From Deltaproteobacteria bacterium (lineage in GTDB: Bacteria > Desulfobacterota > Desulfuromonadia > Geobacterales > Geobacteraceae), in contig JAJZUC010000002.1 in assembly GCA_021847245.1 (NCBI GenBank), forward strand, positions 62,001 to 126,000: a stretch of 64,000 nucleotides of DNA, given 5' to 3'. The notes under the pieces are model-generated. The model did no database searches. It saw only the letters and a program-made list of their open reading frames with translations, and had not been told where the DNA came from. The position numbers and the translations under genes are program-made. Below are positions 10,568 through 59,603 of this stretch, one piece after another. How positions within the stretch are numbered: the stretch's first letter is position 1; every line of letters starts with the position of its first letter.

Positions 10568-10624
10568 ATCCTGCTCCTTTCCCGGCTGGCGGGTCCGCGG
10601 CCGGAGGAGACTTTGAGACAGGGT

Positions 10625-12061: not shown

Positions 12062-12144
12062 CGTCAAACCTCCTTGGCGTCGGATGCCCGTTGTAGGCAA
12101 TGGCGGTGGCCATGAGAAGGGGTTCGTTTTATTCGACTATCAAA

Positions 12145-30118: not shown

Positions 30119-30147
30119 TTGACCACATGGCATGGCTTATGTAAAGT
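30119..30147 (+). promoter_or_regulatory. Candidate promoter for cusCBA
   Basis: TTGACC (30119-30124) is followed after 17 bp by TAAAGT (30142-30147), 32 bp before the ATG at 30180. Short CATGGC repeats overlap it. Sigma-70 type is inferred. Confidence 0.4.
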
Positions 30148-30179
30148 CATGGCCATCAATCCACATCCTAGGAGAAACC

Positions 30180-31454: not shown

Positions 31455-31535
31455 GAGAGCAATGTCGAACTTCCTTTGATAGAAGACGTAACGGCTTAAC
31501 GTATCACTTAATTTCCCATACCACGAGGTACGACA

Positions 31536-32930: not shown

Positions 32931-32973
32931 TGGCCCCATGGAATTTACTCCAATTTGTTAAGGACTTGCTGCC

Positions 32974-42005: not shown

Positions 42006-42080
<75 letters not shown>

Positions 42081-42090
42081 AGAAAGCCAA

Positions 42091-42120
42091 GGGGCCAGAT
42101 CAAGAATCTGGCCCCTTTTT
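42091..42120 (+). terminator. Strong intrinsic terminator after tRNA-Gly
   Basis: GGGGCCAGAT (42091-42100) pairs perfectly with ATCTGGCCCC (42106-42115), followed by five T. It lies 10 bp after the tRNA CCA end. Confidence 0.85.
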
Positions 42121-42498
42121 CGTTTGTATTTACTGTTTGTTGGCGATTTCCGCTCATCTCTTTGTTCCCTCCTTAAGGCATCTCCTAAATAAATTCCCCA
42201 TCGCATCAGTCAAGTCTGTGCCCATCCTGTGCCCAAACTGTGCCCAGCTTCAAAAATCGGCTCTCGTTTGACCGCGAAAAAGTGACAGTAACCCTGTTTG
42301 GGCCTACTCCCTCGGGCTGGCTGAAAAAGAGCCTATCAGGATTTCTCCCGGTTGACCTGCAATATGAAATGGCTTATTAAGAATGCTTGCACTTGCGTGA
42401 TGATTGAAGTTGGTGGGCAGGGTATTTGATTGGTTGGCCGAGGCCGGAGGTCTTCTCCTGAAGCCTGCGGCCAGTAATGAAATTGGAGGCAATTTCAG
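42121..42498. other. 378-bp stretch downstream of tRNA-Gly, possible integrase remnant
   Basis: No intact gene. On the minus strand, ending at TGA near 42210, there are about 18 codons (FEAGHSLGTGWAQT) reminiscent of the C-terminal tail of some site-specific integrases. The same spot shows three CTGTGCCCA units about 10 bp apart (42215-42243). Either could be a leftover of an integrated element. The rest has no recognisable feature. Confidence 0.35.
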
Positions 42499-42915
42499 GT
42501 GTCGCCCTCGTTGAAGCATCTCCATGTCACCTGCGCCATCATCGAACGTGACGGCCTTGTTCTCGCCGCCCAGCGGAGCGCCACCATGAGCCTGCCGCTC
42601 AAGTGGGAGTTTCCCGGTGGCAAGATCGATCCCGGTGAATCGCCCGAAGAATGCCTCCGGCGGGAGCTGGTGGAAGAGATGGGTATTCATGTACACATTG
42701 GAAAAAGCCTCCCTCTCAGCACACACAAGTACCCGGCGTTTTTGGTCACGCTATATCCGTTTGTCTGCGCCATCGAGTCGGGAGAGATCGTACTTCACGA
42801 ACACGCTGCCGTAACCTGGCTTCCCCCGGATGAACTGCACACCCTCGACTGGGCCGAAGCTGATCTGCCGGTGATTGAATCGTATCTTGCCGAAACCGGG
42901 ATCTGCTTCCCATGA
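42499..42915 (+). CDS. Nudix hydrolase, MutT-like (deoxy)nucleoside triphosphate pyrophosphohydrolase
   Basis: GTG at 42499 follows TTGGAGGCAATTTCAG. The 138-residue protein has the Nudix box GGKIDPGESPEECLRREL followed by VEEMGI (about residues 40-62), with the REL-EEMG core needed for Mg binding. The N-terminal VTCAIIERDGLVLAAQRS fits MutT enzymes that remove oxidised or damaged nucleotides. Its stop overlaps the ATG of the decayed helicase gene, a pairing of Nudix and DUF3427-type helicase that may be an original operon. Confidence 0.88.
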   Translation: MSPSLKHLHVTCAIIERDGLVLAAQRSATMSLPLKWEFPGGKIDPGESPEECLRRELVEEMGIHVHIGKSLPLSTHKYPAFLVTLYPFVCAIESGEIVLHEHAAVTWLPPDELHTLDWAEADLPVIESYLAETGICFP

Positions 42916-43564
42916 AGCACCTTGCTCCCGGCCTCTACGAAGCTCTTCTCGACGAGTCCCTTCGCGACGCACTCGCGCGGCGCCCGGAGCTGAGGAGGGT
43001 CTTTGGCAAGATCGATCCGGAAGAACAGCCGGGGCTGTAGGGAAAAACACCGCCTCGTCCCGGAACAAAAGCCGCTTTTCCTTGAGATCACTCCTGCAGA
43101 TTCTCCTCGGCCTCACCGCCACCCCGGAACGGATGGACGGCGACAACGTGGCCGCCGACTTCGGCAATCGCTTTGCCGCGGAAATCCGCCTCCCCGAAGC
43201 GCTGGAAGAAAAGCTCCTCTGCAACGAGCTGCTGGCGATATTCACGACAATTTCGAAGAAGTGCAAGGAGTTAGGATAATTATGAAGTTTGAGTTATGAA
43301 GTATGAAGTTAGAACGATTCTCATGTTTTTCTGGGGTTGACTTGGTTTTTTCATAATTCATTCGTCATAATAATTCATAATTGCATTACCGTTCTAGTCT
43401 TTGCCCGTGGGCAGAAGAAGCGGAACAATGTGACGGTGCCGTTCACCTATCTGGGGCCGGTGGAGATGGTGAGTTTCGAGAGCGAGCGGCCGATCAAGAT
43501 GGTCTGGCGGCTCAGATATTCCATGCCGGTGGAGATGTTTGAGGATAATCGAAGGGGTGGATAG
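42912..43564 (+). pseudogene. Decayed DUF3427-type DEAD/DEAH helicase, three fragments
   Basis: Fragment 1 (42912-43040) encodes MKHLAPGLYEALLDESLRDA...FGKIDPEEQPGL, the N-terminus of this helicase type. Fragment 2 (about 43090-43250) carries LLGLTATPERMDGDNVAADF and RLPEALEEKLL from the helicase core. Fragment 3 (about 43408-43563) reads KKRNNVTVPFTYLGPVEMVS and RPIKMVWRL, the C-terminal DUF3427-like end. Frames differ and large parts are gone. The intact gene would have been about 3 kb and is probably a defence or repair helicase. Confidence 0.75.
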
Positions 43565-43696
43565 ATTGTAATGTTTGAGGATGAGAGATAAGCAAAACGT
43601 CATTAATGTTTTAATGCCCGACAAAATTCAGCGAATAGTGGTTGATGCTGAATTTAGGACGTCCGGAATTTTGTTTCGGGAGAATTTTACGCAGCC

Positions 43697-44461
43697 ATGA
43701 CCTTGCCGTTGTTCGAACAGATCAGGTTTCTCCATCCGGTGGGACTATCCACCTGCAAGTACGGTGTGACCATCCCGCTGGAGGCGCAGACGCCAGCTTT
43801 GCAGGCCGTCCCTAAGGGGAGCAAGGTTCCCGTAACCATCCTCTGCGACGGCATGGTGCCGGTGCAGGCCGATATTCGCCGCCTGAACAACAAGCCGGGG
43901 CATTTCCAGTTCCGCTATGAACTGAAGTCACAGGAGCGGCTGCGCCACTATCTGGGCGCTGTTTTTGCCCAGGGGGCCAGCGGCAGTCTGCTGAACATCG
44001 AGGAAATCGCCCCCTGGACGTTCCGCTTCCAGCCGATCCTGAAAGACGCCAGCCCATGCCTCCAGATCAGCGACGTGCTGCATCACAACCTGAAGGCCTT
44101 GGAAGCACGGCGCTTCACAGAACTTGAGCAGATCCGTGAATCGCTGGGCAGCATCGCCTATGATGACAGCCTTAGTCAGTCGGATTACAACGGTCTGATC
44201 AAGGCCGGGTTGGAAGATCGCGGCTGGCAGAGCGAGCAACGGGTGATCAGGGAACTGGGCCTCAAGTGCGATTTCGAGAAGAACGGTGTGTGGGTGGAAG
44301 TGGAATTCGGCAATGCCCGCTCCTACTATCAGGACTACGTCAAGTTCATGCTGGCCCGTAAATACCGGGACGCCAGGCTCGGCCTGCTCCTCTGTCCGAC
44401 GACATCGTTTGCGGCGCTGCTGTGCGAGCTGGGGCGCAGAAAGCGCAGGCGAATTCGGTAG
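43697..44461 (+). CDS. BglII/BstYI-like restriction endonuclease fold protein, 3' frameshifted
   Basis: The 254-residue frame starts MTLPLFEQIRFLHPVGLSTC and ends with a nuclease-like core, CDFEKNGVWVEVEFGNARSY YQDYVKF...RDARLGLLLCPTTSFA, the pattern of BglII-type endonucleases (conserved ExE/GN). The final residues RRKRRRIR are out of place. Restoring one G in the run at 44431-44434 would continue the frame into AQKAQANSVAEKAPVYSGMM, matching the expected tail of such proteins. I read it as a full-length gene with a 1-nt deletion near its end. No cognate methyltransferase is nearby. Confidence in the fold is moderate. Confidence 0.5.
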   Translation: MTLPLFEQIRFLHPVGLSTCKYGVTIPLEAQTPALQAVPKGSKVPVTILCDGMVPVQADIRRLNNKPGHFQFRYELKSQERLRHYLGAVFAQGASGSLLNIEEIAPWTFRFQPILKDASPCLQISDVLHHNLKALEARRFTELEQIRESLGSIAYDDSLSQSDYNGLIKAGLEDRGWQSEQRVIRELGLKCDFEKNGVWVEVEFGNARSYYQDYVKFMLARKYRDARLGLLLCPTTSFAALLCELGRRKRRRIR

Positions 44462-45381
44462 CCGAGAAAGCGCCCGTCTACTCCGGGATGATGAGCTTTG
44501 AGAAGGCGGCGCGGGAGTTGCCGTATCTGGGGTTTATGGATGAGCTGCTGTCCTACCCGGACACGGAGGAACTGTTTCACGACCTGGTAGTGAAGTACGC
44601 CCTCCGATCCGGGGTGTCGGGCGTGCAGCCTAAAGTCATGCTGGATGCGACGGAGCGGGGAACCGCCACTGTCGGCGGTTACATCGTGAAATCCTGGGGA
44701 GCCGATTATCCGCAGCTGGCGGAGAATGAATTCTTCTGCATGACCGCAGCCAGGCGGGCCGGTTTGCCGGTGCCGGAATTCCATCTTTCCGAAAACGGCG
44801 GGCTGTTCGTGATGAAACGGTTCGATATTGCCCCAACCGAAGGACACCCCTTGGGCTTCGAGGATATGTGCTCCCTGCAGGCCCTGGGTACAGCCCAGAA
44901 ATACGGCAGCACCTACGAGAGGGTCGCGCGGTCGATCAAGGATTTCGTGTCGGGAGAGTTCCTGAAGACAGCCCGTGAGCAGTTTTTCGCCTCGCTCGTT
45001 CTTTCCTGCATGATAAGGAATGGCGATGCCCACCTGAAGAATTTCGGCGTGCTGTACGAGCGGCCCGGGCAGCCGGTCCGATTGGCACCCGTGTACGACA
45101 TGGTGACCACAGTGGCTTACATCCCCCGGGATGTCCCTGCGCTCTCCCTGGCAGGCACCAAGAAGTGGTGGCCTCGCAAGATCCTGGAGAAGTTTGCGGT
45201 AACGCACCTGGCATTGCCGGTCGGGAAAGTGGGGCAGATCTGCGAGGAGGTGGCCGAGGGGGTGAACGATACCCGTGGTATACTGGCTGCGTACATGGAG
45301 GAGCAACCGGCGTTCCGGGAAGTGGGGAACCGGATGCTGGCCGCCTGGAACGAAGGAGTGACGGAAACCTTGTCTGCATGA
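44422..45381 (+). CDS. HipA-like Ser/Thr kinase toxin, N-terminal subdomain missing
   Basis: The 319-residue frame contains the HipA_C core: SGVSGVQPKVMLD (glycine loop), NEFFCMTAARRAGLPVPEF, FVMKRFD, EDMCSLQAL, catalytic MIRNGDAHLKNFG, and PVYDMVTT as the metal-binding Asp. The N-terminal ~110 residues of classical HipA are absent. The first ~45 residues (to about YSGMMSFEKAARELPYLGF) look like the tail of the BglII-type protein upstream, so the gene may be a fusion by deletion. No hipB gene is adjacent. HipA kinases phosphorylate Glu-tRNA synthetase or related targets; activity here is uncertain. Confidence 0.7.
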   Translation: MRAGAQKAQANSVAEKAPVYSGMMSFEKAARELPYLGFMDELLSYPDTEELFHDLVVKYALRSGVSGVQPKVMLDATERGTATVGGYIVKSWGADYPQLAENEFFCMTAARRAGLPVPEFHLSENGGLFVMKRFDIAPTEGHPLGFEDMCSLQALGTAQKYGSTYERVARSIKDFVSGEFLKTAREQFFASLVLSCMIRNGDAHLKNFGVLYERPGQPVRLAPVYDMVTTVAYIPRDVPALSLAGTKKWWPRKILEKFAVTHLALPVGKVGQICEEVAEGVNDTRGILAAYMEEQPAFREVGNRMLAAWNEGVTETLSA

Positions 45382-45508
45382 AGCCTCCGCCTCTGGTGGG
45401 GGATTACGCAGATCTGGCAGAAATGAACTAACCCTACAACCTCTACTGGCGGTGGGTCATACCGTTGGGCCAGACCAGTCGCATCGCCGAACGTTATGAG
45501 GGAACTGC

Positions 45509-45931
45509 ATGAACAGCGCCGATAACGCAATAGTCCTCTATCAGACTCCGGACGGGTCGTCTTCCCTTCAGGTCCATCTCGACCATGACACCGTCTGGCT
45601 CACCCAGAAACAGATGGCAGAGCTGTTCGGCAAGGATGTCAGAACCGTCAACGAACACATCAGGAACATCTTCAAAGAAGGGGAGCTTGACGATGCTTCA
45701 GTTATCCGGAAATTCCGGATAACTGAAGCAGACGGTAAATCATACGATACGACCCACTACAACCTCGACGTAATCATCTCTGTCGGCTACCGGGTCAAGT
45801 CCCAGCAAGGAACCCGCTTCCGCCAATGGGCGACCAGGGTACTGCATGACCATATCGTCAAGGGGTACACGATCAACGAGCAACGGCTGCGTGTTAATCG
45901 GCATGCAAAAGTGACCCACTTTTGGGTGTAA
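45509..45931 (+). pseudogene. RhuM-family protein truncated by a MITE-like element
   Basis: The first ~128 residues match RhuM (virulence protein) family N-termini: DTVWLTQKQMAELFGKDVRT, VNEHIRNIFKEGEL, VIRKFRITEADGKSYDTTHY and NLDVIISVGYRVKSQQGTRF. At NEQRLRV the frame enters the repeat at 45892 and ends after RHAKVTHFWV. Full-length RhuM proteins have over 300 residues, so two thirds are missing. ATG at 45509 follows GAGGGAACTGC. Confidence 0.8.
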
Positions 45932-46046
45932 TCGGCGTCCAAGGGGTGACCCACCATTCAACAGGATTCTCACTGATATTGCGATTGTATTTGGATTATT
46001 GCCTGGGTCAACCTTGATTGCCGATGGTGGGTCATGCCGATTAAAA
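45892..46046. mobile_element. MITE-like/IS-derived element, copy 1 (~155 bp)
   Basis: The element starts TGTTAATCGGCATGCAAAAG and ends CATGCCGATTAAAA, giving ~12-bp terminal inverted repeats. It is about 85-90% identical to the element at 59443-59603, differing by substitutions and a short indel near the right end. It has no coding capacity. The termini resemble IS21-type ends. It interrupts the RhuM-like gene and abuts a NifU fragment. Confidence 0.75.
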
Positions 46047-46047
46047 T

Positions 46048-46260
46048 CCCCGCAACGTCGGCTCCCTGAATGATGCCAACGTGGTGGTTCAGGCCGGCGA
46101 CCCCGGTTGCGGCGATGCGGTCCTCTTCTTCCTAAATATCGAAGGAGAGATCGTGCGCGACGTGAAGTTCCTCATCAAGGGGTGCGGCGCTGCCATTGCC
46201 ACCTCGTCGGTGGCCACGGAGCTGGTCATGGGGAAGGTCTGGCGGGGTCCGACCAAGCAC
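46048..46260 (+). pseudogene. NifU/IscU-type Fe-S scaffold gene fragment
   Basis: The frame right after the MITE end reads RNVGSLNDANVVVQAGDPGC GD, then VKFLIKGCGAAIATSSVATE LVMGK. This is the NifU N-terminal domain with two of the three scaffold cysteines (GCGD and KGCG). The first ~20 residues and everything after MGK are lost. Two rearrangements, the MITE at 5' and an unknown junction at 3', appear to have cut it. Confidence 0.75.
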
Positions 46261-46280
46261 GGTAGACAAAGAGGAAACCC

Positions 46281-46532
46281 ATGGACCTGTTCGCGGAACT
46301 CAGAACTGTCGCAATCCAGCATAACCTGGTGGGGGATTTCCCGGCATGGCTCCTGGCGGATGTGCTGGCCATTGCAGACGCCCCCGAGAAGTATGGGGAC
46401 GCCATCCCCCTGGTCGAGACGCTCATCGCCCAGATAAGGGACTACGATCCCTTCGCCGGCACGGGGTGCTTCGACAACTCCGTCGGCATCGAGCAGATTC
46501 AGGCGACGATACGCCACCTGAAACAGTGCTGA
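46281..46532 (+). CDS. Small conserved-looking protein of unknown function (83 residues)
   Basis: ATG at 46281 follows AAGAGGAAACCC. The product MDLFAELRTVAIQHNLVGDF continues as mostly helical, with FPAWLLADVLAIADAPEKYGD and YDPFAGTGCFDNSVG. No signal peptide and no metal motif except one Cys pair far apart. I do not recognise it. Good ribosome site and codon use favour a real gene. Confidence 0.5.
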   Translation: MDLFAELRTVAIQHNLVGDFPAWLLADVLAIADAPEKYGDAIPLVETLIAQIRDYDPFAGTGCFDNSVGIEQIQATIRHLKQC

Positions 46533-46807
46533 ATGCCCGCCGCCGGCGGAGACCAAGCGGAAAACGTGGAGGGCACCTCGCTCTTTTTCGCTAAGCGCCT
46601 ATTCTCTCAAAAATCCCATCCTCGCAAACAAAATTGCCTCCCTTCATACTATCTAAAGGTTCATCGTTCATTGTAATGAACAAAGATGACCCAGCCCCTT
46701 ACAACGTAATAATATCATCAGACTGCGGGAGGAACGATGATGAACGGAACCGCTACGGTGGTCCTCCCCTGTTCGCAGGATTTTCAGTGGGGAGGGGGGC
46801 GGCGTAC

Positions 46808-48208
46808 ATGAATATGCCGGTGCTGATACTTCTGGCCGCCGCACTTCTGTCCGGTTGCGCAACCTATCAGTCAAGGCCCCTGGAGCCTGCCCGTACGGCC
46901 GCGGCCTTCGAATCGCGCACCCTCGACAACCCGGCGCTGAAAATGTTCCTGGAGACGAACCTGGGCCATGCAATATCCCCCTGGCCGCCGAGCTCATGGG
47001 ACTTTCGCTCTCTCACCCTGGCCGCCTTCTACTATCACCCCGACCTGGACGTGGCGCGCGCCCGGTGGGGGGTCGCCGAGGCGGGGAAGATCACGGCCGG
47101 CCAACATCCTAACCCGAGCTTCGGCTTCATCCCCCAGCATCATTCGGACACCGCCGGCGGGCTCTCCCCCTGGACCCTCGGCTTCAACCTGGACATCCCC
47201 ATCGAGACGGCCGGCAAGCGGGGCTACCGTGTCGCCCGGGCCGATCACCTTTCCCGGGCGGCCCGGCTGAACATCGCCGGAGTGGCATGGCAGGTGAGAA
47301 GCCGCCTGGAGGGGAGCATCTTCAACCTCTACGCGGCACTGGCGACCGAACCCTTGCTGCAACGGGAGGAAACCGCCCAATCGGAGATCGTAGATCTCCT
47401 GGAGGGTCGTCTTTCCGCGGGCGAAGCATCCCTTCCCGATGTGACCCAGGCCCGCCTGGCACTTGAGCAGACCCGCCTCCTCCTGGTGGAGATCCGTAAA
47501 CGGCGCGCCGAATCCCGCGTTGCGTTCGCCTCCGCACTGGGGGTACCGCGGGAGGCTGTCGAGGGGATAAACATCTCCTTCGACTCCATCGGTGCAGCTC
47601 CTTCCCTCCCATCCGCATCGGAGATGCGGCGGCAGGCTCTGACCAACCGTCCCGATATCCTGGCGCTCCTTTCGGAGTACGAAGCGGCCGAGGCGGCGCT
47701 CCGGCTGGAAATCGCCAAGCAGTACCCGGATATCCATCCCGGTCCCGGCTACCAGTGGGACCAGGGGGACAACAAGTGGTCCCTCGGCTTCACCGTGACG
47801 CTTCCGCTCTTTAACCGCAACCAGGGGCCGGTTGCCGAGGCCGAGGCGCGCCGCAAGGAAACCGCCGCCCGCTTCGCCGCCCTTCAGGCCCGCGTGATCG
47901 GCGAGGTTGACCAGGCGCTGGCGGGGTACCGCGCCCTCCTGGCCAAGCTTGCGGCGGCGGACGCATTGCTCTCCGCCCAGCAAACCAGGCACAAGTCCGC
48001 GGAGGCCCTCTTCGAGGCTGGCGAGACGGACCGGCTGGCGCTCGCAGCCGCGGCACTGGAGCTGGAGAGCGCCGCTTTGAATCGTCTCGAAACCTTTTCG
48101 AGGCTGCTTCAGGCGCGCAGGGCCCTGGAAGACGCGCTCCAGCGCCCGCTCACGCTTTCTGAGTCGTTTCCGGCGGATCCCCGGCCGGAAAAGGAGAATG
48201 GCAAGTGA
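46808..48208 (+). CDS. TolC-family outer-membrane lipoprotein of RND pump A
   Basis: ATG at 46808 (MNMPVLILLAAALLSGC) starts a lipoprotein signal; a short GGGGAGGGGGGCGGCGTAC site precedes it. The 466-residue chain has two OEP repeats (AFYYHPDLDVARARWGVAEA and LTNRPDILALLSEYEAAEAA). Its last codons overlap the start of the adaptor gene (GTGA, 48205-48208), so the two are translationally coupled. It is the outer-membrane channel of the first of two tandem pumps. Sequence is distant from the TolC proteins at 14501 and 30180. Confidence 0.9.
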   Translation: MNMPVLILLAAALLSGCATYQSRPLEPARTAAAFESRTLDNPALKMFLETNLGHAISPWPPSSWDFRSLTLAAFYYHPDLDVARARWGVAEAGKITAGQHPNPSFGFIPQHHSDTAGGLSPWTLGFNLDIPIETAGKRGYRVARADHLSRAARLNIAGVAWQVRSRLEGSIFNLYAALATEPLLQREETAQSEIVDLLEGRLSAGEASLPDVTQARLALEQTRLLLVEIRKRRAESRVAFASALGVPREAVEGINISFDSIGAAPSLPSASEMRRQALTNRPDILALLSEYEAAEAALRLEIAKQYPDIHPGPGYQWDQGDNKWSLGFTVTLPLFNRNQGPVAEAEARRKETAARFAALQARVIGEVDQALAGYRALLAKLAAADALLSAQQTRHKSAEALFEAGETDRLALAAAALELESAALNRLETFSRLLQARRALEDALQRPLTLSESFPADPRPEKENGK

Positions 48209-49275
48209 AACAGAGGAGCGTGAAAATCATCCCGGCTATTCTCGCCCTGGCGGGAGTTGCGGCCCTCCTTGTGTGGGGTTTTATGGAAGGACGCAAGGAG
48301 CAGGCCATGGAGGCAGAGCGGGAGCGGCCGGTAAAGGCGCCGTCGCGGGTCTCGGTACAAGGCAACGAAGTTGTCATTACCATCGATCAGGCAACCCTGG
48401 AAAAATCGGCCATCACCCTCGCTCCGCTCGCCGCGCTCTCCCATCGCGGGGAACAGCGCGCAACCGGCACTGTGCTCCAGCTCGCGGAGTTCATGGGCGC
48501 CCGAAACGGCTACGTTGCGGCAAAGGCGCAGCTGGAGAAGGCGCGGGCGCTTCTGGCCGCTTCCCGCAGTGAGTACGAACGGCTAAAGCTCTTGAACGCC
48601 GACAACCGCAACGTCTCCGACAAGGCCCTCCAGGCGGCTGAGGCGGCATGGCGCGCCGATGAGGCAACCCTCCAGGGAGCGACCGCATCCCTCAAAGCAC
48701 TGAACGGCAGCGTACGGCAGCGATGGGGAGGAGTCATCGCCGGCTGGCTCTTTGAGGGGTCTCCCGCCTTCGACAGACTGGCGCAGCAGAAAGACCTCCT
48801 GATTCAGGTCACTTTTCCTCCCGACGCGCCTGTCACTGCGGGGCCGCGCTCGATCCAGGTCCAGACCGGGGAGGAAGGCCGCCCGATTGCGGCCCGACTC
48901 GTTTCACCTGCTCCTGTCACCGATCCCCGCATCCAGGGGGTGAGCTTCTTCTATGCCGCTGCGGCACAGCCGGGGCTTCTTCCCGGCATGAACGTTGTGG
49001 CCCGGATCCCTGTCGGACCGACGCTGCATGGGGCCGTGGTCCCCTCGTCCGCCGTGGTCTGGTGGCAGGGAAAGGCGTGGGCATACCTGCAAAGGGGGTC
49101 GGACAGCTTCGTGCGTCGCGAGATTCCGACGTCGGTTCCGGTCAAGGACGGTTTCTTTGTGGCGGCAGGACTCTCTCCCGAAGATCGGGTGGTGGTGAGC
49201 GGGGCGCAGCTTCTCCTCTCCGAGGAATCCCGTCCCCAGACCAGTGGTGGGGAGGAGAAAGGGGACAATGACTAG
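48205..49275 (+). CDS. RND periplasmic adaptor of pump A
   Basis: GTG at 48205 overlaps the preceding stop. The 356-residue adaptor has a membrane anchor (about residues 9-27), an alpha-hairpin region (ARNGYVAAKAQLEKARALLA), and beta-barrel and membrane-proximal domains (LLPGMNVVARIPVGP). Unlike both Cus adaptors it has no heavy-metal-binding domain and no His/Met tail, so the substrate may not be copper. Its stop at 49275 overlaps the permease ATG by 8 bp. Confidence 0.85.
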   Translation: MKQRSVKIIPAILALAGVAALLVWGFMEGRKEQAMEAERERPVKAPSRVSVQGNEVVITIDQATLEKSAITLAPLAALSHRGEQRATGTVLQLAEFMGARNGYVAAKAQLEKARALLAASRSEYERLKLLNADNRNVSDKALQAAEAAWRADEATLQGATASLKALNGSVRQRWGGVIAGWLFEGSPAFDRLAQQKDLLIQVTFPPDAPVTAGPRSIQVQTGEEGRPIAARLVSPAPVTDPRIQGVSFFYAAAAQPGLLPGMNVVARIPVGPTLHGAVVPSSAVVWWQGKAWAYLQRGSDSFVRREIPTSVPVKDGFFVAAGLSPEDRVVVSGAQLLLSEESRPQTSGGEEKGDND

Positions 49276-52200
49276 CCACGACAGCGGCGGCATTCTCTCT
49301 TCCATCGTCCGGCTCTCTCTCCGCTTCCGGCGGGTGGTGATCGCCCTCACCTTCCTCATGGCGGGGTACGGCATCTACACCCTTGCCAGGGTCAAATACG
49401 ACGTTTTCCCCGAATTCGCTCCCCCGCAGGTGGTTATCCAGACCGAGTCGCCCGGTCTCTCCCCGGAGCAGGCGGAGATGCTTGTCACCCAGCCGGTGGA
49501 GAGCGCGGTCAACGGCCTGACGGGAATCGAGTCGCTCCGCTCCGGCACCATTCAGGGACTGTCGGTCGTCACACTGACGTTCGACCCGCGGAGCAACGTC
49601 TACCTGGACCGGCAACTGGTGGCCGAGCGTCTCTCCGCTCTGGCCGGACGGCTCCCCCGGGGGGTGCAGGCACCGGTGATAACTCCGCTCACCTCCTCAA
49701 CCAGCGTGGTGCTGGCAGTGGGGCTTACCTCGCCGAAACTCTCGCTCATGGAGCTTAGAACCATCGCCGACTGGACGGTGAGGCAGCGCCTCCAGGCAGT
49801 TCCCGGCGTTGCCAAGGTGGCGGTGTTCGGCGGCGACGTGCGCCAACTGCAGATACAGTTTCGGCCCGACCGGCTGGTCCGTCACAACCTCTCCGTCGAG
49901 GATGTTCTGGCTGTGGCACGACGGGCCACCGGGGTTCGGGGTGCCGGTTTCATCGACAACGACAACCAGCGCCTCATCCTCCAGAGCGAGGGGCAGTCCC
50001 TCACTCCGCAGGAGCTTGCCCGGACTGTCCTCGTGCACCAGAACGGCGCCAACGTGACCCTCGGGGATGTGGCGCAGGTTGTCGATGCCCCGGAGCCTCC
50101 CATCGGCGCCGCCGCGATCATGGGGAAACCGGGGGTGCAGCTCCTCGTATCGGAACAGTACGGGGCAAACACCCAGGAGGTGACGGGGGCGGTCGAGAAG
50201 GCCCTGGCCGAGCTCAGGCCCGGGCTTGCGGCGCAGGGAGTGGAGCTCCATGGGGATATCTTCCGCCCTGCCAACTTCATCCGGACCGCGACCGGGAACG
50301 TGCAATCGGCCCTTCTCATCGGCGCGGCCCTGGTAGTGGTCGTTATCTTTCTCTTTCTCTTCAACTTGCGTACTGCGGCCATCTCCTGCCTGGCCATCCC
50401 CCTTTCGCTCCTGGCCGCCGTAACCGCTCTGGAATACTTAGGGATCAGCCTCAACACCATGACCCTGGGGGGGCTCGCCATCGCCGTCGGGATGGTGGTG
50501 GACGACGCCATCATCGACGTGGAGAACATCCTCAGAAGGCTAAGGGAAAATCGCCACCTGCCGGAGCCGCAACCGGCGTCGAGGGTGGTTTACAACGCCT
50601 CCCTGGAGGTGCGCGGCGCCGTGGTCTACGCCACCTTTGCCATGGCCCTGGTCTTCGTCCCGGTCCTGACCATGTCCGGTCTGGCCGGGCGCCTCTTCGC
50701 CCCCCTCGGTATCGCCTACATCCTGGCGACCCTCGCTTCGCTCGCGGTGGCCCTGACGATCACCCCCGCCCTTTGCCTCGTCCTCCTGGGCGACCGGGAC
50801 CTGTCAAAGCGGGAACCGCCGCTGATCCGGTGGCTGAAGGAACGTTACCGATCTCTTCTTGCCACGGTGGAGCGGCACCCCCGCGCCGTCGTAATCGGTG
50901 TGGTGCTCTTCACCCTGGCCGGTCTTTCCCCCTTGCCGTTTTTCGGCGCCGCTTTCCTTCCGGAGTTGAAGGAGGGGCACTACCTCGTCCACATGACCGC
51001 CGTGCCCGGCACGTCCCTTCAGGAATCGCTCCGCCTGGGCCGCCAGGTGACAATGGAACTCCTCAAGCTCCCCTTTGTCCGGACGGTGGCCCAACGGGCC
51101 GGACGGGCGGAGGAGGGGGATGACACGCTCGGCACCCATTCCAGCGAGTTCGACGTGGACCTGAAGCCCATGGGAGGAGAAGAGTCCGAGCAGGCGCTGG
51201 GCGAGATCCGGGCGGCGCTGGCCGGGTTCCCGGGCGTGAACTTCGCCGTAAACACCTTCCTGACCGAACGGGTGGAGGAAACGCTCTCCGGCTACACCGC
51301 AGCAGTGGTGGTCAACATCTACGGCAACAACCTGGACGCTCTCGACAGGAAGGCCCACGAGGTCGCAGGGATTCTGGGGGTGATTCCGGGCGTCGCCGAT
51401 CTCCAGGTGCAATCTCCTCCCGGCACCCCGCAACTGATCGTGAGGCTGCGCCAGGAAGAGCTCGTCCGCTGGGGCTTCGACCCAGTGGACGTTCTCGACG
51501 CGGTCCGCACCGCCTACCAGGGCGCCGATGTCGGTCAGACCTACGAGGGAAACCGGGTCTTCGCCGTGGCGGTCATCCTCGATGCCGACACGCGCAAGAG
51601 TGTCACGCAGGTTGGGGAACTGCCGTTGCGCAATCCCGCGGGTACCTATGTCAAACTGAAACAGCTCGCCGATATCTATCAAACGTCGGGGCGCTACGTG
51701 GTCCTGCACAACGCGGCCAGACGGGTGCAGGCCGTCACCTGCAACGTGGCGGGACGAGACGTGAGCTCCTTCGTGGCGGAGGCAAAGAAAAGGATTGCCG
51801 CCAACGTCGCCTTTCCCGCCGGAAGCTACGTCGAATTCACCGGCGAGGTCGCAGCCCAGGCCCGCTCGCGGCAGGAACTGCTGATCCACTCCCTTATGGC
51901 GGGCGTCGGGGTGGTTCTTCTCCTGTCGATGGTCATGGGAAGCGCCAGGAACCTGCTGCTGGTCATGGCGAACCTCCCGTTCGCCGTGGTGGGCGGGGTG
52001 CTGGCGGCCTTCATGACAGGAGGCTCCCTCTCCATCGGTTCCCTGGTCGGCTTCGTCACCCTGTTCGGTATCACCCTGCGCAACTCCATCATGATGATCT
52101 CCCACTACGAGCATCTGGTGCAGGTCGAGGGGATGGAATGGGGGAGTGCAGCGGCCATCAGGGGGGCTTCGGAGCGGCTCGCGCCGATCCTGATGACCGC

Positions 52201-52384
52201 GCTGGTCACCGCCCTGGGGCTTCTCCCCATGGCCATCGGTGCGAGTGCGCCGGGGCGGGAGATCGAGGGGCCAATGGCGCTCGTCATCCTGGGGGGGCTT
52301 GTCACCTCGACCGCGCTCAATTTGCTTGTGCTGCCTGCTCTCGCGCTCAGGTTCGGTTTCTTTACGGGTGGTGCCGAAGAATAG
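49268..52384 (+). CDS. HME-type RND efflux permease of pump A
   Basis: ATG at 49268 ([10 protein letters not shown]) lies inside the adaptor's stop region. The 1038-residue permease has full RND topology with TM4 [20 protein letters not shown], carrying two adjacent Asp as in proton-coupled HME pumps. The Cus methionine triad is absent: the LLYMP position reads GHYLVHMTA and the others are unmatched, so Cu/Ag is less likely than divalent cations or organics. It is the third gene of pump A. Confidence 0.9.
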
Positions 52385-52500
52385 GAGCGGGCGCAATCCC
52401 GGTTGTCCACTGACATTCGTCATCGTGAAAGGCGATTTGTTCAAGACGAGAGAAAATGATCTGCAAAAGAACCGTTTCCCGAGCAGGGGGGAGTTATCAG

Positions 52501-53877
52501 GTGAAAATAATTGCCGCGGCAATTCTGCCGCTTCTTCTCGCACAGGCTGGCTGCACGCTCTATCACCCAAAACCCCTGCCCACGAAGCCAGCGCTTCTGC
52601 AGCGGATTCCGCAGGTGGTGGACAAAGGAGACCTGCAGCCAGCCACCCATCCGTTCAACCCCGACGACGGTCTCGACATGACCGAAGTGGCGATCCTGGC
52701 GGTTGCCAACAATCCGGACTTGCGGACCGCCCGCGACAAGCAGGGGATCGCGGCTTCACAGCTCATGGCCGCCGGAATTCTGCCCAACCCGCGACTGACC
52801 GCCGGCCTCGACCATCCGTTCAATGCCGGTCCGGGGTACGTGAACGCCTTCAACCTTGGATTGAGCTACGACGTCGGAACCCTCGTTACCCGGAGCGCCG
52901 CCGTTGCCGCTGCCCGTTCCGCCAGCCGCAAGGTCGACTGGAGCCTCCTCTGGCAGGAATGGCAGGTAGTGCAGAAGACCCGGCTGCTCTTCGTCAGGAG
53001 CATCGAGGAGGAGAAGATGCGGCTTGAGCTGCAACGTTACCGCGACCTCCTTGCCGACCGGTATCACCGGGCCGACCGGGCCATGCAGCAGGGGAACCTG
53101 ACCATCGACGCGGTCAGCGCCAACCTGGCGGAGCTCCAGAAGGTGCGGGGCCGGCTGGCGGAACTGGAACGCCGGCACAGTCAGACCGGCCACGAGCTTA
53201 ACGCCCTGCTGGGGCTGGCGCAGGACGTCCCCCTTTCCCTGACTGGCGGCGCGGAGCTGCCGCTCCCCGACGAGCGTGGAGCACGCGAACTCCTCGACCA
53301 GCTTCCCCACCGCCGGCCGGATCTGCTGGCCCTGCAGGCCGGCTATGCGAGCCAGGAAGAGCAGCTCCGCCGGGCGATCCTGGCCCAGTTTCCCGCGCTG
53401 AACATCGGCCTGACCAGGGCACGCGACACGAGCGACATCAATACCTATGGGTTCGGAGTGACCCTCACCCTGCCGGTTTTCGACCGCAACCAGGGGGCCA
53501 TCGCCGTGGCCAGGGCAACGCGACGGCAACTGTACGACGAATACCAGGCCCGCCTCGATAGCGCCTATAGCGAGGCCGGGAACCTCCTGGAGCAGATCGC
53601 CCTGGTGCGGCGCCAGTACCGGGAAGTTGAGGCCGCCCTTCCCCGGTTGGAAAAGGTGCTCGGGACAGCCGAGGCGGCACTGGCCGCCGGCACCATGGAA
53701 TTTGCCACCTTCACCACCCTCCGCGCTTCCCTGTTCGAGAAGCGGCTTGAGGCTCTCACTTTGGAGCAATCGCTGCTGGAACAGCAGGCCATCCTGCAGA
53801 CGGTGCTCGGCACCGATTTCCGGGGACTTACCGACACCCCGCAGATTCAGCTGGCACCGAAAAGGGAAAAACGATGA
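52501..53877 (+). CDS. TolC-family outer-membrane lipoprotein of RND pump B
   Basis: GTG at 52501 follows GGGGGGAGTTATCAG; an ATG at 52456 is weaker. The signal VKIIAAAILPLLLAQAGC has a lipobox. The 458-residue protein has the OEP repeats VAILAVANNPDLRTARDKQG and LPHRRPDLLALQAGYASQEE, long helices between, and VFDRNQGAIAVARATRR. It starts 116 bp after the pump A permease stop and overlaps the next gene by 4 bp, so pumps A and B may be one transcript. Confidence 0.9.
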   Translation: MKIIAAAILPLLLAQAGCTLYHPKPLPTKPALLQRIPQVVDKGDLQPATHPFNPDDGLDMTEVAILAVANNPDLRTARDKQGIAASQLMAAGILPNPRLTAGLDHPFNAGPGYVNAFNLGLSYDVGTLVTRSAAVAAARSASRKVDWSLLWQEWQVVQKTRLLFVRSIEEEKMRLELQRYRDLLADRYHRADRAMQQGNLTIDAVSANLAELQKVRGRLAELERRHSQTGHELNALLGLAQDVPLSLTGGAELPLPDERGARELLDQLPHRRPDLLALQAGYASQEEQLRRAILAQFPALNIGLTRARDTSDINTYGFGVTLTLPVFDRNQGAIAVARATRRQLYDEYQARLDSAYSEAGNLLEQIALVRRQYREVEAALPRLEKVLGTAEAALAAGTMEFATFTTLRASLFEKRLEALTLEQSLLEQQAILQTVLGTDFRGLTDTPQIQLAPKREKR

Positions 53878-54911
53878 AACGAGCCATTGCCGTTGCCGCA
53901 ATCCTGCTGACCATGGCGATATTTTCCCGCCCGGCGTTCCCCGCCGACGGTCCCATCGCAGCAGTCCGGACCGAGCCGCTCGGAAAGCGCGAGCTGGCGT
54001 CGACCATTACCGGTTATGGCACGGTAGGCACTGATCCCCGAAATACGACCACCATCAATTTTCCCTATGCGGTGCAGATTACGCGACTGCCGGTCATCCT
54101 GGGGGAAGTGGTGAGAAAGGGCGCTCCGCTGGTGGAGGTTTCCGTGAGCCCCTCGGATGCCATGGGCTTTGCCTTGGCCCGGTCCAACCTGGAGTTCGCC
54201 CGTGCCGAGCTGGCCCGGGTGCAGAGCATGGCGGACCAGCAGTTGGCAACCCGCTCCCGGCTCGACCAGGCAAAAAAGAATGTGATCGATGCGGAAAGGG
54301 CGCTTGCCGTCCAGCGAAAACTCGGGACCGACAAGGGGAGCACCTTGATATCGGCGCCTTTTGCCGGCGTGATCAGCATGGTGAACGCGGCGCCGGGCGA
54401 CCGGGTCCCGGCGGGGACCACGGTTGTCCAGCTCGCCCGCCAGGACCGGCTGCGGGTGGTGGTCGGCATCGAGCCGGAGGAGATGGGGCGGATCAGGCCG
54501 GGGATGCCGGTGCGGGTCTCCTCAGTGTTTGACGAGAGAGTTATCATTGCGGGCCGTGTGGAAAAGGTATTCGGCATGATCAATCCGCAGACGAGGCTTG
54601 TTGATGTGAGCGTTGCCCTCAGTCCGGGGCAAAGCTCCGCCCTGGTGGCGGGAACGCGTGTGAAGGGGGTCATCACCCTCAATCGCCGGAAAGAGTATGC
54701 GGTCCCAAGGAGTGCGCTTCTCAAAGACGCCGGCGGTGCCTACCTTTTCGTGGTGCGAAATGGCCGGGCACACCGCGTCGCCGTAACCCCGGGCGTCGAA
54801 AGCGGCGGCATGGTGGCGGTAAACGGCAGGATAGCCCCAGGGGAGCGAGTGGTGGTTCTGGGCAATTATGAACTGCGCAACGGGATGGAAGTCAGGGAGG
54901 AGGGGAAATGA
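53874..54911 (+). CDS. RND periplasmic adaptor of pump B
   Basis: ATG at 53874 overlaps the preceding stop (ATGA). The 345-residue adaptor has a signal-like N-terminus (MKRAIAVAAILLTMAIFSRP, cleaved near FPAD) instead of a lipobox or stable anchor, lipoyl half motifs (VILGEVVRKGAPLVEVSV, VNAAPGDRVPAGTTVVQLA) around a short hairpin, and a beta-barrel region (LRVVVGIEPEEMGRIRPGMP). It has no metal-binding domain. It overlaps the permease ATG (54908) by 4 bp. Confidence 0.87.
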   Translation: MKRAIAVAAILLTMAIFSRPAFPADGPIAAVRTEPLGKRELASTITGYGTVGTDPRNTTTINFPYAVQITRLPVILGEVVRKGAPLVEVSVSPSDAMGFALARSNLEFARAELARVQSMADQQLATRSRLDQAKKNVIDAERALAVQRKLGTDKGSTLISAPFAGVISMVNAAPGDRVPAGTTVVQLARQDRLRVVVGIEPEEMGRIRPGMPVRVSSVFDERVIIAGRVEKVFGMINPQTRLVDVSVALSPGQSSALVAGTRVKGVITLNRRKEYAVPRSALLKDAGGAYLFVVRNGRAHRVAVTPGVESGGMVAVNGRIAPGERVVVLGNYELRNGMEVREEGK

Positions 54912-57900
54912 GCCTCTTCACCAGCTGGGTCCAGACCCATCGGCGCTCCATCCTCTTTCTGGTCCTGATGATGGCGGTGGCCGGCGCGGCCATCTCATTT
55001 CGCCTCCCGGTGGCACTCTTCCCCAAGGTAGACTTTCCCCGGGTCGTCATCTCCCTCGATGCGGGAGACCGGGCCGCCGAGCTGATGGAGCTCCAGGTGA
55101 CCCGTCCCGTGGAGCAGGCGGTACGGGCGGTGCCGGGGGTTGAATCGGTCCGCTCCACCAGCAGCCGGGGGAGCGCCGAGATTTCGGTGAACTTCGGCTG
55201 GGGAACCGACATGATTTCCTCTATGCTTCAGGTGGAATCGGCGGTCAGCCGGGTTCTCCCCGGTCTCCCCGGCGGGACGACCTTCGAGGTTAAGCGCATG
55301 GACCCGACGGTATTCCCGGTTCTCGGCTACAGCCTTACCTCTGCCACCACCTCGCAGGTGGAACTCCACAATATCGCCCGCTACCAGTTGGTTCCCCTTC
55401 TTTCCAGCGTCAACGGGGCTTCGCGGGTCCAGGTGATCGGGGGAAGCCGGGAAGAGTACCGGGTAACGGTGGACCCCGCCCGTCTCCAGGCCTATGATCT
55501 CACCCTCGACGACGTGGCCCGGACCCTTTCGGCAGCCAACGTCATTACCGCCGTCGGTCGCCTGGAGGACCACTACAAGCTCTACCTGGCCATGGCCGAC
55601 ACCCGACTCGCCACCCAGGACGAGATCCGCCAGACCATCGTGAAAAGCGGCCCCAACGGTGTCGTCCACCTGGAAGAGATTGCCGACGTGGGACGGGATA
55701 CCGTCCCCCAATGGCAGCGGGTGACCGCCGACGGCCGGGACGCGGTGCTGATCAACGTCTACCAGCAGCCGGGAGGAAACACCGTCCGGATCGCCCGGGA
55801 GATCAAGGCCAAGCTCGCCTCCTTCCGCTCCCAGCTCCCCCCGGGGGTGACGATCCGCACCTGGTACGACCAGAGTGAACTGATCGTCAATTCGGCGGCC
55901 AGCGTCCGCGACGCCATCATCATCGGGGTGATCCTCGGGGCGGCGGTGCTCCTGCTGTTCTTGCGCAGTATGAAGATCACCCTCATCGCCATCGTCGTCG
56001 TCCCGACGGTGCTGGCGGCCACCATCGTCCTGCTCCATCTCCTCGGCATGAGCTTCAACATCATGACCCTCGGCGGCATGGCGGCGGCGGTGGGGCTGAT
56101 CATCGACGACGTCATCGTCATGGTGGAGCATATCATCCGCCGTCTGCGCGGCAGCCGGGGCGATCACGAAGGACGGGTCATGGCCGCGGCCCGCGAATTC
56201 GCCCAGCCGCTGGCGGGTTCCTCTTCCGCGACCATCGTCATCTTCCTCCCCCTCGCCTTTCTCAGCGGCGTAACCGGAGCTTTTTTCAAGGCCCTTTCGG
56301 TGACCATGGCGGCGGCACTGATCATCTCCTTCCTGATTACCTGGCTCGCCATTCCGATCCTGGCCGACCATCTGCTGGGGGAGAAGGAGGCCCGTCGTGA
56401 GGAGGGGGGGGCGATCACGAAGCGGGTCCACCGTCTCTACGAACGGCTCATGCTCTCCCTTCTCCGTCGACCGTGGCTGGTCCTTGCCGGCATAGTCCCG
56501 CTCCTGATCCTCGGCTATGTCGGGTACCGCCAGGTGGGATCGGGCTTCATGCCGGTCATGGACGAAGGGGGGTTCATCCTCGACTACCGGACCCCGCCGG
56601 GCACCGCCCTTTCGGAAACCGACCGGCTGCTCCGGCAGGTGGAGGCGATCATCAAGGCGACGCCCGATGTGGCAACGTATTCGCGCCGTACCGGCACCCA
56701 GCTGGGGGGCGGACTGACCGAGGCCAACACCGGCGACTTCTTCATCCGCCTGAAACCACAACCGCGGCGCCCCATCGACGAGGTGATGGACGAGATTCGG
56801 GGCAAGGTCGAACAGCAGGTGCCGGGGCTCAGGATCGAACTGGCCCAGCTGATGGAAGACCTGATCGGGGATCTGACCGCCGTGCCGCAGCCGATCGAGA
56901 TAAAGCTCTATGCCGACGACCAGCGGCAGCTCTTTTCCGTCAGCCGTCGGGTGGCGGACGTCATCGGCAAAATAACCGGCGTGGTGGATGTTCGCGACGG
57001 CATCGTACTGGCGGGGGACGCCCTCGACATTCACGTGGATCGGACCAAGGCGGCCCTGGAGGGGGTCGATCCCGAAGTGGTGACCCGGATGGTACGGGAC
57101 TATCTTTCCGGAGTGGTCACCACTGAGGTGCAGGAAGGGATCAAGATGGTCGGGGTGCGGGTCTGGATCCCGCCGGAGAAGCGCGCCACCGAGCCGGACG
57201 TCGGTTCATTCCTGCTTCGTGCCCCGGACGGTCACCTCTTTCCGTTGCGGCGGGTCGCCACGGTAACCTCCGTCACCGGCCAGCCGGAGATCACCAGCGA
57301 GAACCTGAAGCCGATGGTCGCCGTGACCGGGCGGATCAGCGGCCGGGACATGGGCTCGGCCGTGCGGGAGGTCCGCCGCGCCCTCGGACAAGCCGGGCTT
57401 ATCCCCCGGGGAGTCTATTTTGAACTGGGGGGGATGTACCGGCAGCAGCAGATCGCATTCCGGGGGCTCATCGGCGTCTTTGTCGCCGCCCTGGCCCTGG
57501 TCTTCCTGCTGCTGCTATTCCTCTATGAGCGGTTCCGGATCGTGCTGGCCATTGCCGTCATTCCCCTCTTGTCGCTGTCGGCGGTCTTTGTCGGGCTCTG
57601 GGTGACCGGCACCGAACTCAACATCTCGGCCATGATGGGGATGACGATGATCGTCGGGATCGTCACCGAGGTCGCCATCTTCTACTTCTCCGAGTACCGG
57701 GAACTCGCGGCAACCGCGGAGCCGCTCGCGGCATTGGTGGAGGCGGGGAAGAACCGGATGCGGCCGATCGTCATGACCACTGTCGTGGCGGTCCTCACGC
57801 TTCTGCCCCTGGCGCTTGCCATCGGCCAGGGCTCGGCCATGCAGCAGCCGCTGGCGATCGCCATCATCTCCGGGCTGTTGATCCAGGTGCCGCTCGTCCT

Positions 57901-57943
57901 GATCGTCCTGCCGGGGATCTTCAGGTTGTTGTTCGGCCGCTGA
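54908..57943 (+). CDS. RND efflux permease of pump B
   Basis: The 1011-residue permease has RND architecture with TM4 GGMAAAVGLIIDDVIVMVEH and a porter domain starting FRLPVALFPKVDFPRVVISL, closer to the general AcrB/MdtB-type or uncharacterised HAE/HME group than to CusA. The methionine triad is absent. It is shorter than pump A's permease and only distantly related. It is the sixth gene of the pump A-B array and the last before a convergent ATPase gene. Substrate unknown. Confidence 0.88.
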   Translation: MSLFTSWVQTHRRSILFLVLMMAVAGAAISFRLPVALFPKVDFPRVVISLDAGDRAAELMELQVTRPVEQAVRAVPGVESVRSTSSRGSAEISVNFGWGTDMISSMLQVESAVSRVLPGLPGGTTFEVKRMDPTVFPVLGYSLTSATTSQVELHNIARYQLVPLLSSVNGASRVQVIGGSREEYRVTVDPARLQAYDLTLDDVARTLSAANVITAVGRLEDHYKLYLAMADTRLATQDEIRQTIVKSGPNGVVHLEEIADVGRDTVPQWQRVTADGRDAVLINVYQQPGGNTVRIAREIKAKLASFRSQLPPGVTIRTWYDQSELIVNSAASVRDAIIIGVILGAAVLLLFLRSMKITLIAIVVVPTVLAATIVLLHLLGMSFNIMTLGGMAAAVGLIIDDVIVMVEHIIRRLRGSRGDHEGRVMAAAREFAQPLAGSSSATIVIFLPLAFLSGVTGAFFKALSVTMAAALIISFLITWLAIPILADHLLGEKEARREEGGAITKRVHRLYERLMLSLLRRPWLVLAGIVPLLILGYVGYRQVGSGFMPVMDEGGFILDYRTPPGTALSETDRLLRQVEAIIKATPDVATYSRRTGTQLGGGLTEANTGDFFIRLKPQPRRPIDEVMDEIRGKVEQQVPGLRIELAQLMEDLIGDLTAVPQPIEIKLYADDQRQLFSVSRRVADVIGKITGVVDVRDGIVLAGDALDIHVDRTKAALEGVDPEVVTRMVRDYLSGVVTTEVQEGIKMVGVRVWIPPEKRATEPDVGSFLLRAPDGHLFPLRRVATVTSVTGQPEITSENLKPMVAVTGRISGRDMGSAVREVRRALGQAGLIPRGVYFELGGMYRQQQIAFRGLIGVFVAALALVFLLLLFLYERFRIVLAIAVIPLLSLSAVFVGLWVTGTELNISAMMGMTMIVGIVTEVAIFYFSEYRELAATAEPLAALVEAGKNRMRPIVMTTVVAVLTLLPLALAIGQGSAMQQPLAIAIISGLLIQVPLVLIVLPGIFRLLFGR

Positions 57944-58084: not shown

Positions 58085-59320
58085 TTAGTAAAGAAACCCG
58101 AAAAGCCAAAGCGGAATGCGGTTGCCGCTGCCTACCTCGATATCGTCCACTGCGAGCCACGAGCGTTCGACTCCTTTGATCTGACTTCCTTTCTTGTTCT
58201 TGCCACCCACTTCGAAGATCAGATTACCATTTACCAGAAAATCCCCTCTTTCAGCTGCTGATACCTCATGATGGGTACGGAGCATGTTCAGGAAGAACGT
58301 TTCCCTGATCGCGCCACTCTCCGGCTTTTCCGCGGTTGCCAGTGCATGGTAGAGACTCGGATTGTTCAGGTAGATTTTCGCAGGCTTTTCCATGGCTCTC
58401 AGGCCCTTGCCGCTTCTGCCAAGGGTCAGGATGATTCCGGCATCATCCAGATATTTCAGATAGGTCTTGAGCGTTCTTTCGTCGCCGATGTCCAGCAGGT
58501 TCTTCAAATTCTTCATGTCTGGTGTATAGGGTACCAATGACGAAATCACCGCAAGGAGCTTTTCAATTTTCTGGATACTGGAACCATTCAGTGACTGATG
58601 GATTGCCATCAGATCACTTTCCAGGGTTGTGTGGACGTTCTGGTCCAGGGTCATGTAGAACTGGGCTCTATCATTGTATTCCAGGAAATAGGGGTAATAT
58701 CCGACGGCAAGATAGTCCCTGAAAAGTGCCAGCACTTTCTTGCCGTTCGCCTCCAGTTCCTGGATAATGGCATCGGCAGCCTGCTGGTGTCCGGTGATGA
58801 TGGAATCAAGGTCAACTTGGTGTAGATCAATGCCACACAGCATGCCTATGTATTCTCTGAATGACATCCCGTACATCCGGTACACAAGGGCTCGACGGCT
58901 AAGATCGTGACTCCCCTTGGTTATTTCGAGAGCGGAGCTGCCGGAAGCGACGATCTTCAAGGAAGGGAAGGTGTCGCTGATGCTTTTCAACTCCATCGAC
59001 CAGTCACGGTACTTGTGGATTTCGTCGAAAAGGATCAGTTCCCCCCCCATCTTGTGAAAATCATCGGCTATCTCATATAGGGATGAACGGGAAACCTGAA
59101 AATGGTCTGCCTGAAGATAGAGAGCCTTGCGCGTGAATCGGTCATTACTGTACTGTTCCAGAAGATGCTGGATCATGGCGGTCGTCTTGCCTATGCCCCG
59201 CTGCCCAACTATGATGGAAAAGCGGTTGGTAAGCGGGGTGTCGCGCAGGAAGTAGCGCTTGAAGGACCGGTTCCTGATGCGCAGGAATGTTTGGCTGAGG
59301 ATAAAGAGTTCGTCCAGCAT
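58085..59320 (-). CDS. AAA ATPase with DUF4143 (AAA_14 family)
   Basis: ATG at 59320 follows AAGGGGAGACACTA; the frame remains open upstream through the MITE but has no start signal there. The 411-residue protein has Walker A GQRGIGKTTA (about residues 39-48), Walker B LILFDEIHKYRDW, sensor VASGSSAL, the FREYI segment, and a C-terminal DUF4143 domain with ETFFLNMLRTHHEV and FEVGGKNKKGSQ, a nuclease-like DxEVGGK motif. Such proteins are widespread, often on mobile DNA, and their role is uncertain. It is 123 bp from the MITE copy at 59443. Confidence 0.85.
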   Translation of the reverse strand: MLDELFILSQTFLRIRNRSFKRYFLRDTPLTNRFSIIVGQRGIGKTTAMIQHLLEQYSNDRFTRKALYLQADHFQVSRSSLYEIADDFHKMGGELILFDEIHKYRDWSMELKSISDTFPSLKIVASGSSALEITKGSHDLSRRALVYRMYGMSFREYIGMLCGIDLHQVDLDSIITGHQQAADAIIQELEANGKKVLALFRDYLAVGYYPYFLEYNDRAQFYMTLDQNVHTTLESDLMAIHQSLNGSSIQKIEKLLAVISSLVPYTPDMKNLKNLLDIGDERTLKTYLKYLDDAGIILTLGRSGKGLRAMEKPAKIYLNNPSLYHALATAEKPESGAIRETFFLNMLRTHHEVSAAERGDFLVNGNLIFEVGGKNKKGSQIKGVERSWLAVDDIEVGSGNRIPLWLFGFLY

Positions 59321-59442
59321 TAGTGTCTCCCCTTCTTTGTTGTGCAATACTATTTTATAGGCATTTGTTGGTAATGCAATACTAACATATTTAATATGAC
59401 AGGCAATAACAAGGGGGACCGATGAAAAAGAGTCGTGGAGGG

Positions 59443-59603
59443 TGTTAATCGGCATGCAAAAGTGACCCACTTTTGGGTGTAATCGGCGTCCAAGGGTGAC
59501 ACCATTCAACAGGATATCTCGCCGATATTGCGATTGTATTTGGATTATTGCCTGGGTCAACCCTGATTGCCGATGGCGGGTCATTTCACGATGCCGATTA
59601 ACA
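59443..59603. mobile_element. MITE-like/IS-derived element, copy 2 (161 bp)
   Basis: TGTTAATCGGCATG begins the element and GATGCCGATTAACA ends it, close to perfect 13-bp inverted repeats. The interior matches the copy at 45892-46046 for most of its length and shares AAGTGACCCACTTTTGGGTG. It has no ORF. It lies upstream of the AAA ATPase start and extends that gene's open frame. No target-site duplication is clear. Confidence 0.75.

Follow-up and report, generated by a model that had tools for sequence, protein, structure and literature searches.

Six open reading frames, all of them open and intact, occupy positions 46808-57943 on the forward strand of the window, i.e. of the whole stretch of 64,000 nucleotides that was analysed, which sits in a 133-kb contig of a 2.96 Mb genome (78% complete). 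Their order, outer membrane factor (OEP), adaptor (ADP) and RND permease, is found twice, so that a permease, an adaptor and a TolC-type channel, the parts of a tripartite RND pump, occur together in both pump 1 and pump 2. OEP1 (46808..48208) is a TolC/CusC-type outer membrane factor and a putative lipoprotein (LLSGC), matching the Pfam family OEP with an E value of 5.9e-39. It is followed by ADP1 (48205..49275), a periplasmic adaptor with an N-terminal helix whose apparent lack of a lipoyl domain is the defining oddity of pump 1, and by the permease RND1 (49268..52384; ACR_tran, E 2.5e-244), for which a GTG at 49244, upstream of the ATG at 49268, is a possible alternative start. After a gap of exactly 116 bp (52385..52500) pump 2 is encoded by OEP2 (52501..53877; OEP, E 5.2e-24), ADP2 (53874..54911) and RND2 (54908..57943; ACR_tran, E 9e-213). 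OEP2 starts at a GTG with a good ribosome-binding site, and an in-frame ATG is located at 52456; ADP2 is a conventional adaptor with a CusB/HlyD barrel-sandwich domain (HlyD_D23, E 5.5e-18), and scores above the TIGR01730 cut-off. Genes overlap within the pumps by 4, 8, 4 and 4 bp. A first-pass annotation had described two complete tripartite pumps in a six-gene array, with overlaps of 4-8 bp and a 116-bp gap between the pumps, and the coordinates agree with this description throughout. Since all six frames are open, a reading of the array as containing pseudogenes or frameshifts was discarded. A sigma-70-like promoter was looked for in the 116-bp gap and none was found; terminator-like sites in the array region (9, against 10.2 expected by chance) included none that is convincing within the gap, and no regulator gene adjoins the array in the window itself.

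Upstream of the pumps, the region 42006-46556 contains a tRNA-Gly(GCC) gene followed by NUDIX, a BglII-like endonuclease ORF, HipA_C, a truncated RhuM and a NifU_N fragment, and is, by its gene content, composed of mobile-region remnants. No att-type repeat of the 3' end of the tRNA-Gly gene was found in the window, and for this reason no island boundary is claimed. Directly after the pumps, the reverse strand encodes an AAA_14/DUF4143 ATPase (58085-59584) of low GC content (0.495), which matches the PADLOC candidate PDC-S01. Two further RND pumps are present in the window, at 7433-12100 and 30132-36111. Their permeases (7433-10567 and 32974-36111, respectively own_L006 and own_L004) belong to the CusA/SilA clade and carry Met at the CusA 573 and 672 positions, so that both are predicted to be Cu(I)/Ag(I) pumps.

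ADP1 has no match in Pfam, and none of 62 members of its family matches any Pfam family; the Pfam barrel-sandwich model is matched by CusB, AcrA, ADP2, another adaptor encoded in the window and adaptors from Myxococcota. The identification of ADP1 as an adaptor is based on the position of its gene, on a weak match to the NCBIfam RND-adaptor model TIGR01730 (58.8 bits, cut-off 94.9), on its HHalign alignment to ADP2 and on a fold matching those of CusB and ZneB. In the AlphaFold (AF2) model, obtained from a 62-sequence alignment with a pLDDT of 91.9, strand 76-90 runs directly into two helices, 93-132 and 139-174, which are followed by short helices and then by the barrel. The HHalign comparison with ADP2 (98.9% probability) introduces a 29-residue gap in ADP1 across the first lipoyl half, and the 62 aligned family members, 320-366 aa long, are nearly constant in length at the site where the two lipoyl halves would be expected. 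The nearest folds are those of CusB, ZneB, MexA and AcrA; these matches, obtained by VIA-align and Foldseek, back the adaptor fold and cannot by themselves tell which domain is missing. By profile and by structural model, ADP1 appears to be devoid of the lipoyl (barrel-sandwich) domain, as indicated by Pfam, AF2 and HHalign, while the alpha-hairpin, beta-barrel and membrane-proximal parts of a canonical adaptor are recognizable in the model and in the fold matches.

Adaptors of tripartite pumps missing one of the four standard domains are covered in the accessible portions of two reviews (PMC4446572, PMC13328181), which deal with BesA, lacking the hairpin, and EmrA, lacking the membrane-proximal domain, and in those portions include no lipoyl-less adaptor; ADP1, in contrast to both, would lack the lipoyl domain and keep the hairpin. 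According to the same portions, the lipoyl domain scaffolds or gates the rings that adaptors form. No phrase on a lipoyl-less adaptor occurs in the accessible text of PMC8277102, a limited literature coverage which is no proof of novelty. Existing annotations of ADP1-type adaptors go no further than 'hypothetical', 'metal transporter' or 'multidrug transporter'.

The family is widespread, as a single genome scan revealed 463 related stretches. Among the best 80 of these 463, RND1 comes after the adaptor everywhere but in one short contig, and OEP1 is located upstream of the adaptor, with exceptions mainly in Alphaproteobacteria. Pump-1 members were detected in Geobacter, Nitrospirota, Acidobacteriota, Rhodanobacter, Bradyrhizobium/Afipia, Duganella, Methylotenera and others. 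Some loci deviate from the common arrangement. In Massilia putida (L047, 8914-13062), adaptor and RND1 are found in a single open frame of 1382 aa, in which the C-terminus of the adaptor looks frame-shifted, so this is either a fusion or a sequencing error. RND1 is seemingly interrupted in Gluconobacter plasmid pGOX1 (L048, 9963-13938) and seemingly frame-shifted in a Geobacteraceae MAG (L084, 10916-13989), and the pump may therefore be decaying in some lineages. In five loci from Methylophilaceae and relatives, including LSUCC0135 and Candidatus Methylopumilus (L122, L131, L133, L134, L141), pump 1 adjoins conserved genes that these loci have in common; it may have a housekeeping role in this group.

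The two permeases, already considered distantly related in the first-pass annotation, fall in different clades of a phylogenetic tree from which two permeases of the same genome were left out. RND1 belongs to a clade with 100/100 support whose sister group is formed by Cus/Sil and Cnr/Ncc together. RND2 belongs to a 100/100 clade of its own, placed between the Cus/Sil-Cnr/Ncc group (HME-type) and AcrB/MdtBC (HAE-type). Against TIGR00914 (cut-off 701 bits) RND1 scores 682 bits, just below the threshold, and RND2 464 bits; RND2 is under every NCBIfam cut-off, its best score being with a multidrug permease model. Neither permease is thus an HME-RND sensu stricto, as both lie outside the CusA/CzcA clade and under the TIGR00914 threshold. 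Pump 1 shares the tripartite OEP-adaptor-RND organization of the HME-RND CBA pumps (CusCBA/SilCBA, CzcCBA, CnrCBA/NccCBA, ZneCAB), to which its permease is related as a sister clade, but differs from them by the position of RND1 outside the Cus/Cnr clade, by the sub-threshold score, by the absence of a Met triad and by its lipoyl-less adaptor. The presence of two RND permeases in one array recalls the MdtABC/MuxABC operons, whose permeases are however paralogues, about 50% identical (PMC10872679), sharing a single adaptor, whereas RND1 and RND2 are not close paralogues and are each encoded with a separate adaptor and OEP. Adjacent permease genes have been found only in the MdtBC-type clade (PMC10872679), an arrangement different from the present one. 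A heteromeric double permease of MdtBC type was ruled out because of the separate adaptors and the different clades, and the latter also rule out the duplication of a single pump.

Positions Met573, Met623 and Met672 of CusA, and D602, E610, D654, E136 and H807 of ZneA, which we take to be metal-ligand positions, were compared with the corresponding alignment columns of the two permeases, RND1 residues being numbered from the ATG at 49268. The CusA columns are occupied by H575, Ser and E671 in RND1, and contain no Met in RND2; the earlier statement that the CusA methionines are missing is thus borne out, and neither permease has the Met573-Met623-Met672 set of the CusA-type Cu(I)/Ag(I) permeases. 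His575 (codon at 50990..50992, forward strand), at the Met573 position, is found in 73/73 aligned family members, the window included. The segment Asp619-Glu627 (51122..51148, forward strand) is aligned with the ZneA Zn ligands D602 and E610 (D619 in 70/73 members, E627 in 73/73), and the segment Glu667-Glu671 (51266..51280, forward strand) with ZneA D654 and CusA M672 (E667 in 72/73, E671 in 73/73). RND1 therefore shares with ZneA the acidic character of the D602, E610 and D654 positions; equivalents of E136 and H807 are not conserved. D619 and E627 are not diagnostic, since both are present in CusA/SilA, and among the compared columns RND1 is set apart from these proteins only by H575, E667 and E671. 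In the multiple alignment RND2 has aspartates at four of the HME ligand columns, the alignment of these columns being uncertain. The D-D-E proton-relay pattern of TM4 is kept in both permeases.

At least 7 other loci, the bacteria concerned being in several cases unrelated, combine the two pumps at a distance of about 10 kb or less, in several gene orders. Genome G105 (locus L054) has OEP2-ADP2-RND2-OEP1-ADP1-RND1, with an overlap of 4 bp between the stop of RND2 and the start of OEP1 (8265/8268 of L054). In L105, pump 2 is followed by a response regulator, a histidine kinase and pump 1; in L079 and L136 pump 2 also precedes pump 1, with small ORFs inserted (an IS200-like one in L136), while in L111 the two pumps are convergent. 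Two Burkholderia plasmids carry both pumps about 10 kb apart, and in G236 the distance is about 4.6 kb by coordinates. The adjacency of the two pumps is more than chance, given this recurrence. The paired RND1 sequences are distributed in at least two well-supported subclades, one including those of the window, L079, L105 and L111, the other those of L136, G105 and L042. Between the window and G105, RND2 is 83% identical and RND1, belonging to different well-supported subclades, 60%. With different pump-1 sublineages paired, the combination seems to have been assembled more than once, or to have exchanged partners, and not to have been inherited as a single block.

Co-occurrence was also evaluated at the genome level. 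Of 303 genomes sampled in the class to which a Rhodanobacter genome belongs, 26 contain pump 1, 18 pump 2 and 6 both (Fisher p 0.002), and the association weakens to p 0.03 when two genomes reached through the loci are removed. Among near relatives (n=146, own genome excluded) it is not significant (p 0.19). Sixteen of 50 pump-1 genomes contain pump 2, within 10 kb in 4/16 (rough chance estimate 9e-6). A close pump 2 is absent from the other 34/50, hence pump 1 is not dependent on pump 2. All co-occurrence p-values are rough, because the genomes share ancestry and MAGs are numerous among them, and these statistics, affected by relatedness and sampling, are to be regarded as suggestive.

The interpretation which we favour, and judge somewhat better than even, is that the array forms a two-permease cation-efflux module. 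Pump 1 would be of the CBA type, with a permease from the sister clade of HME-RND and an adaptor that would have lost the lipoyl domain and retained the membrane-proximal/beta-barrel part and a directly joined alpha-hairpin; we infer that ADP1 still assembles into a working pump. Pump 2 would be a complete tripartite pump with a standard adaptor and a permease of another RND clade. A common metal stress on the envelope, to which each pump responds, would be what maintains the pairing; the pumps may draw on separate pools of one ion, or may export two ions which co-occur. The six genes may be co-transcribed, a point on which gene spacing and the arrangements in G105 and L105 bear. The same features could be produced by two independent pumps that came together by accretion in an island, in which case adjacency would carry no functional link. 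The GC content of the array (about 0.65, against 0.51-0.58 in the flanks), its location among mobile remnants near the tRNA-Gly gene, the tendency of metal islands to collect pumps, and the fact that most pump-1 genomes are without pump 2 all fit such an origin, which we nevertheless consider somewhat unlikely, as the two families are brought together time after time, in varying order and with more than one pump-1 sublineage involved, the pump junction is spanned by a 4-bp overlap in G105 and by an operon-like arrangement in L105, and other RND types near pump 1 are rarer and of much lower identity to RND1 or RND2.

For the proposed module, the substrate class is predicted to be a metal cation, probably a hard or borderline one rather than Cu(I): the acidic permease ligand positions and the invariant His of RND1 speak for a hard/borderline cation with a charge of two or more, and less for Cu(I)/Ag(I). 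A Cu(I) pump operating through a CusA-type site was ruled out by the absence of the Met triad, and a further pump for Cu(I) seems less needed in a window already containing two CusA-clade permeases. The two pumps had been proposed earlier to differ in substrate and to be non-copper. The former proposal could not be established; the fact that these families pair repeatedly suggests that they face a common stress, and their substrates may be related. The latter agrees with the lack of the CusA methionines, and pump 1 may, with lower probability, export Cu(II). A metal-associated clade F close to HME includes the Myxococcus Cus3ABC system, linked to Cu(II) (Bodilis et al. 2024, PMC10872679), and the nearest outside group of RND1, among those compared, is a set of Myxococcota permeases, 43-44% identical and sister to it. 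With this group as a proxy for Cus3A, a Cus3-type assignment of RND1 is a lead; the reading of pump 1 as a Cus3-type pump for Cu(II) appears unlikely to us, since the Myxococcota permeases have His at the 619, 667 and 671 positions, where RND1 has D/E/E, their adaptors keep the lipoyl domain, and the window already has two CusA-clade pumps. We regard as distinctly improbable a role of the pumps in the efflux of organic compounds or an action on the lipids of the envelope, as their surroundings might suggest: PAP2, DedA/LssY, MFS, COG4705 (DUF347) and PepSY recur near pump 1, which would indicate envelope modification, and RND2 is nearer to the HAE side, with a multidrug model as its best, sub-threshold match. 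Against this, the response regulator of L105 passes the cut-off of the heavy-metal model TIGR01387 (305 vs 279 bits), ChrA/ChrB (chromate), DmeF or mer genes are found near some relatives, and RND1 is on the HME side with conserved acidic ligand positions. CrcB is likewise among the genes linked to the pumps in other loci. Other leads on the substrate were followed in the literature: an indium/DedA report (PMC8679861) was set aside, as it concerns a DedA protein and no tie to the present pump was found, no papers were found on the COG4705/PepSY/DedA combination, and searches on uranium UzcRS gave nothing usable.

The adaptor and the repeated pairing, both overlooked in the first-pass annotation, are of more interest than the array itself. 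That a widespread adaptor family without a lipoyl ring, with its pump repeatedly joined to a second, unrelated RND pump as one metal-efflux module, represents a distinct efflux architecture is a proposal to which we give slightly less than even chances. A natural family of lipoyl-less adaptors would offer a direct test of whether the lipoyl ring is needed for tripartite assembly, and the two-pump module would be an uncharacterised, probably metal, resistance of environmental bacteria and plasmids.
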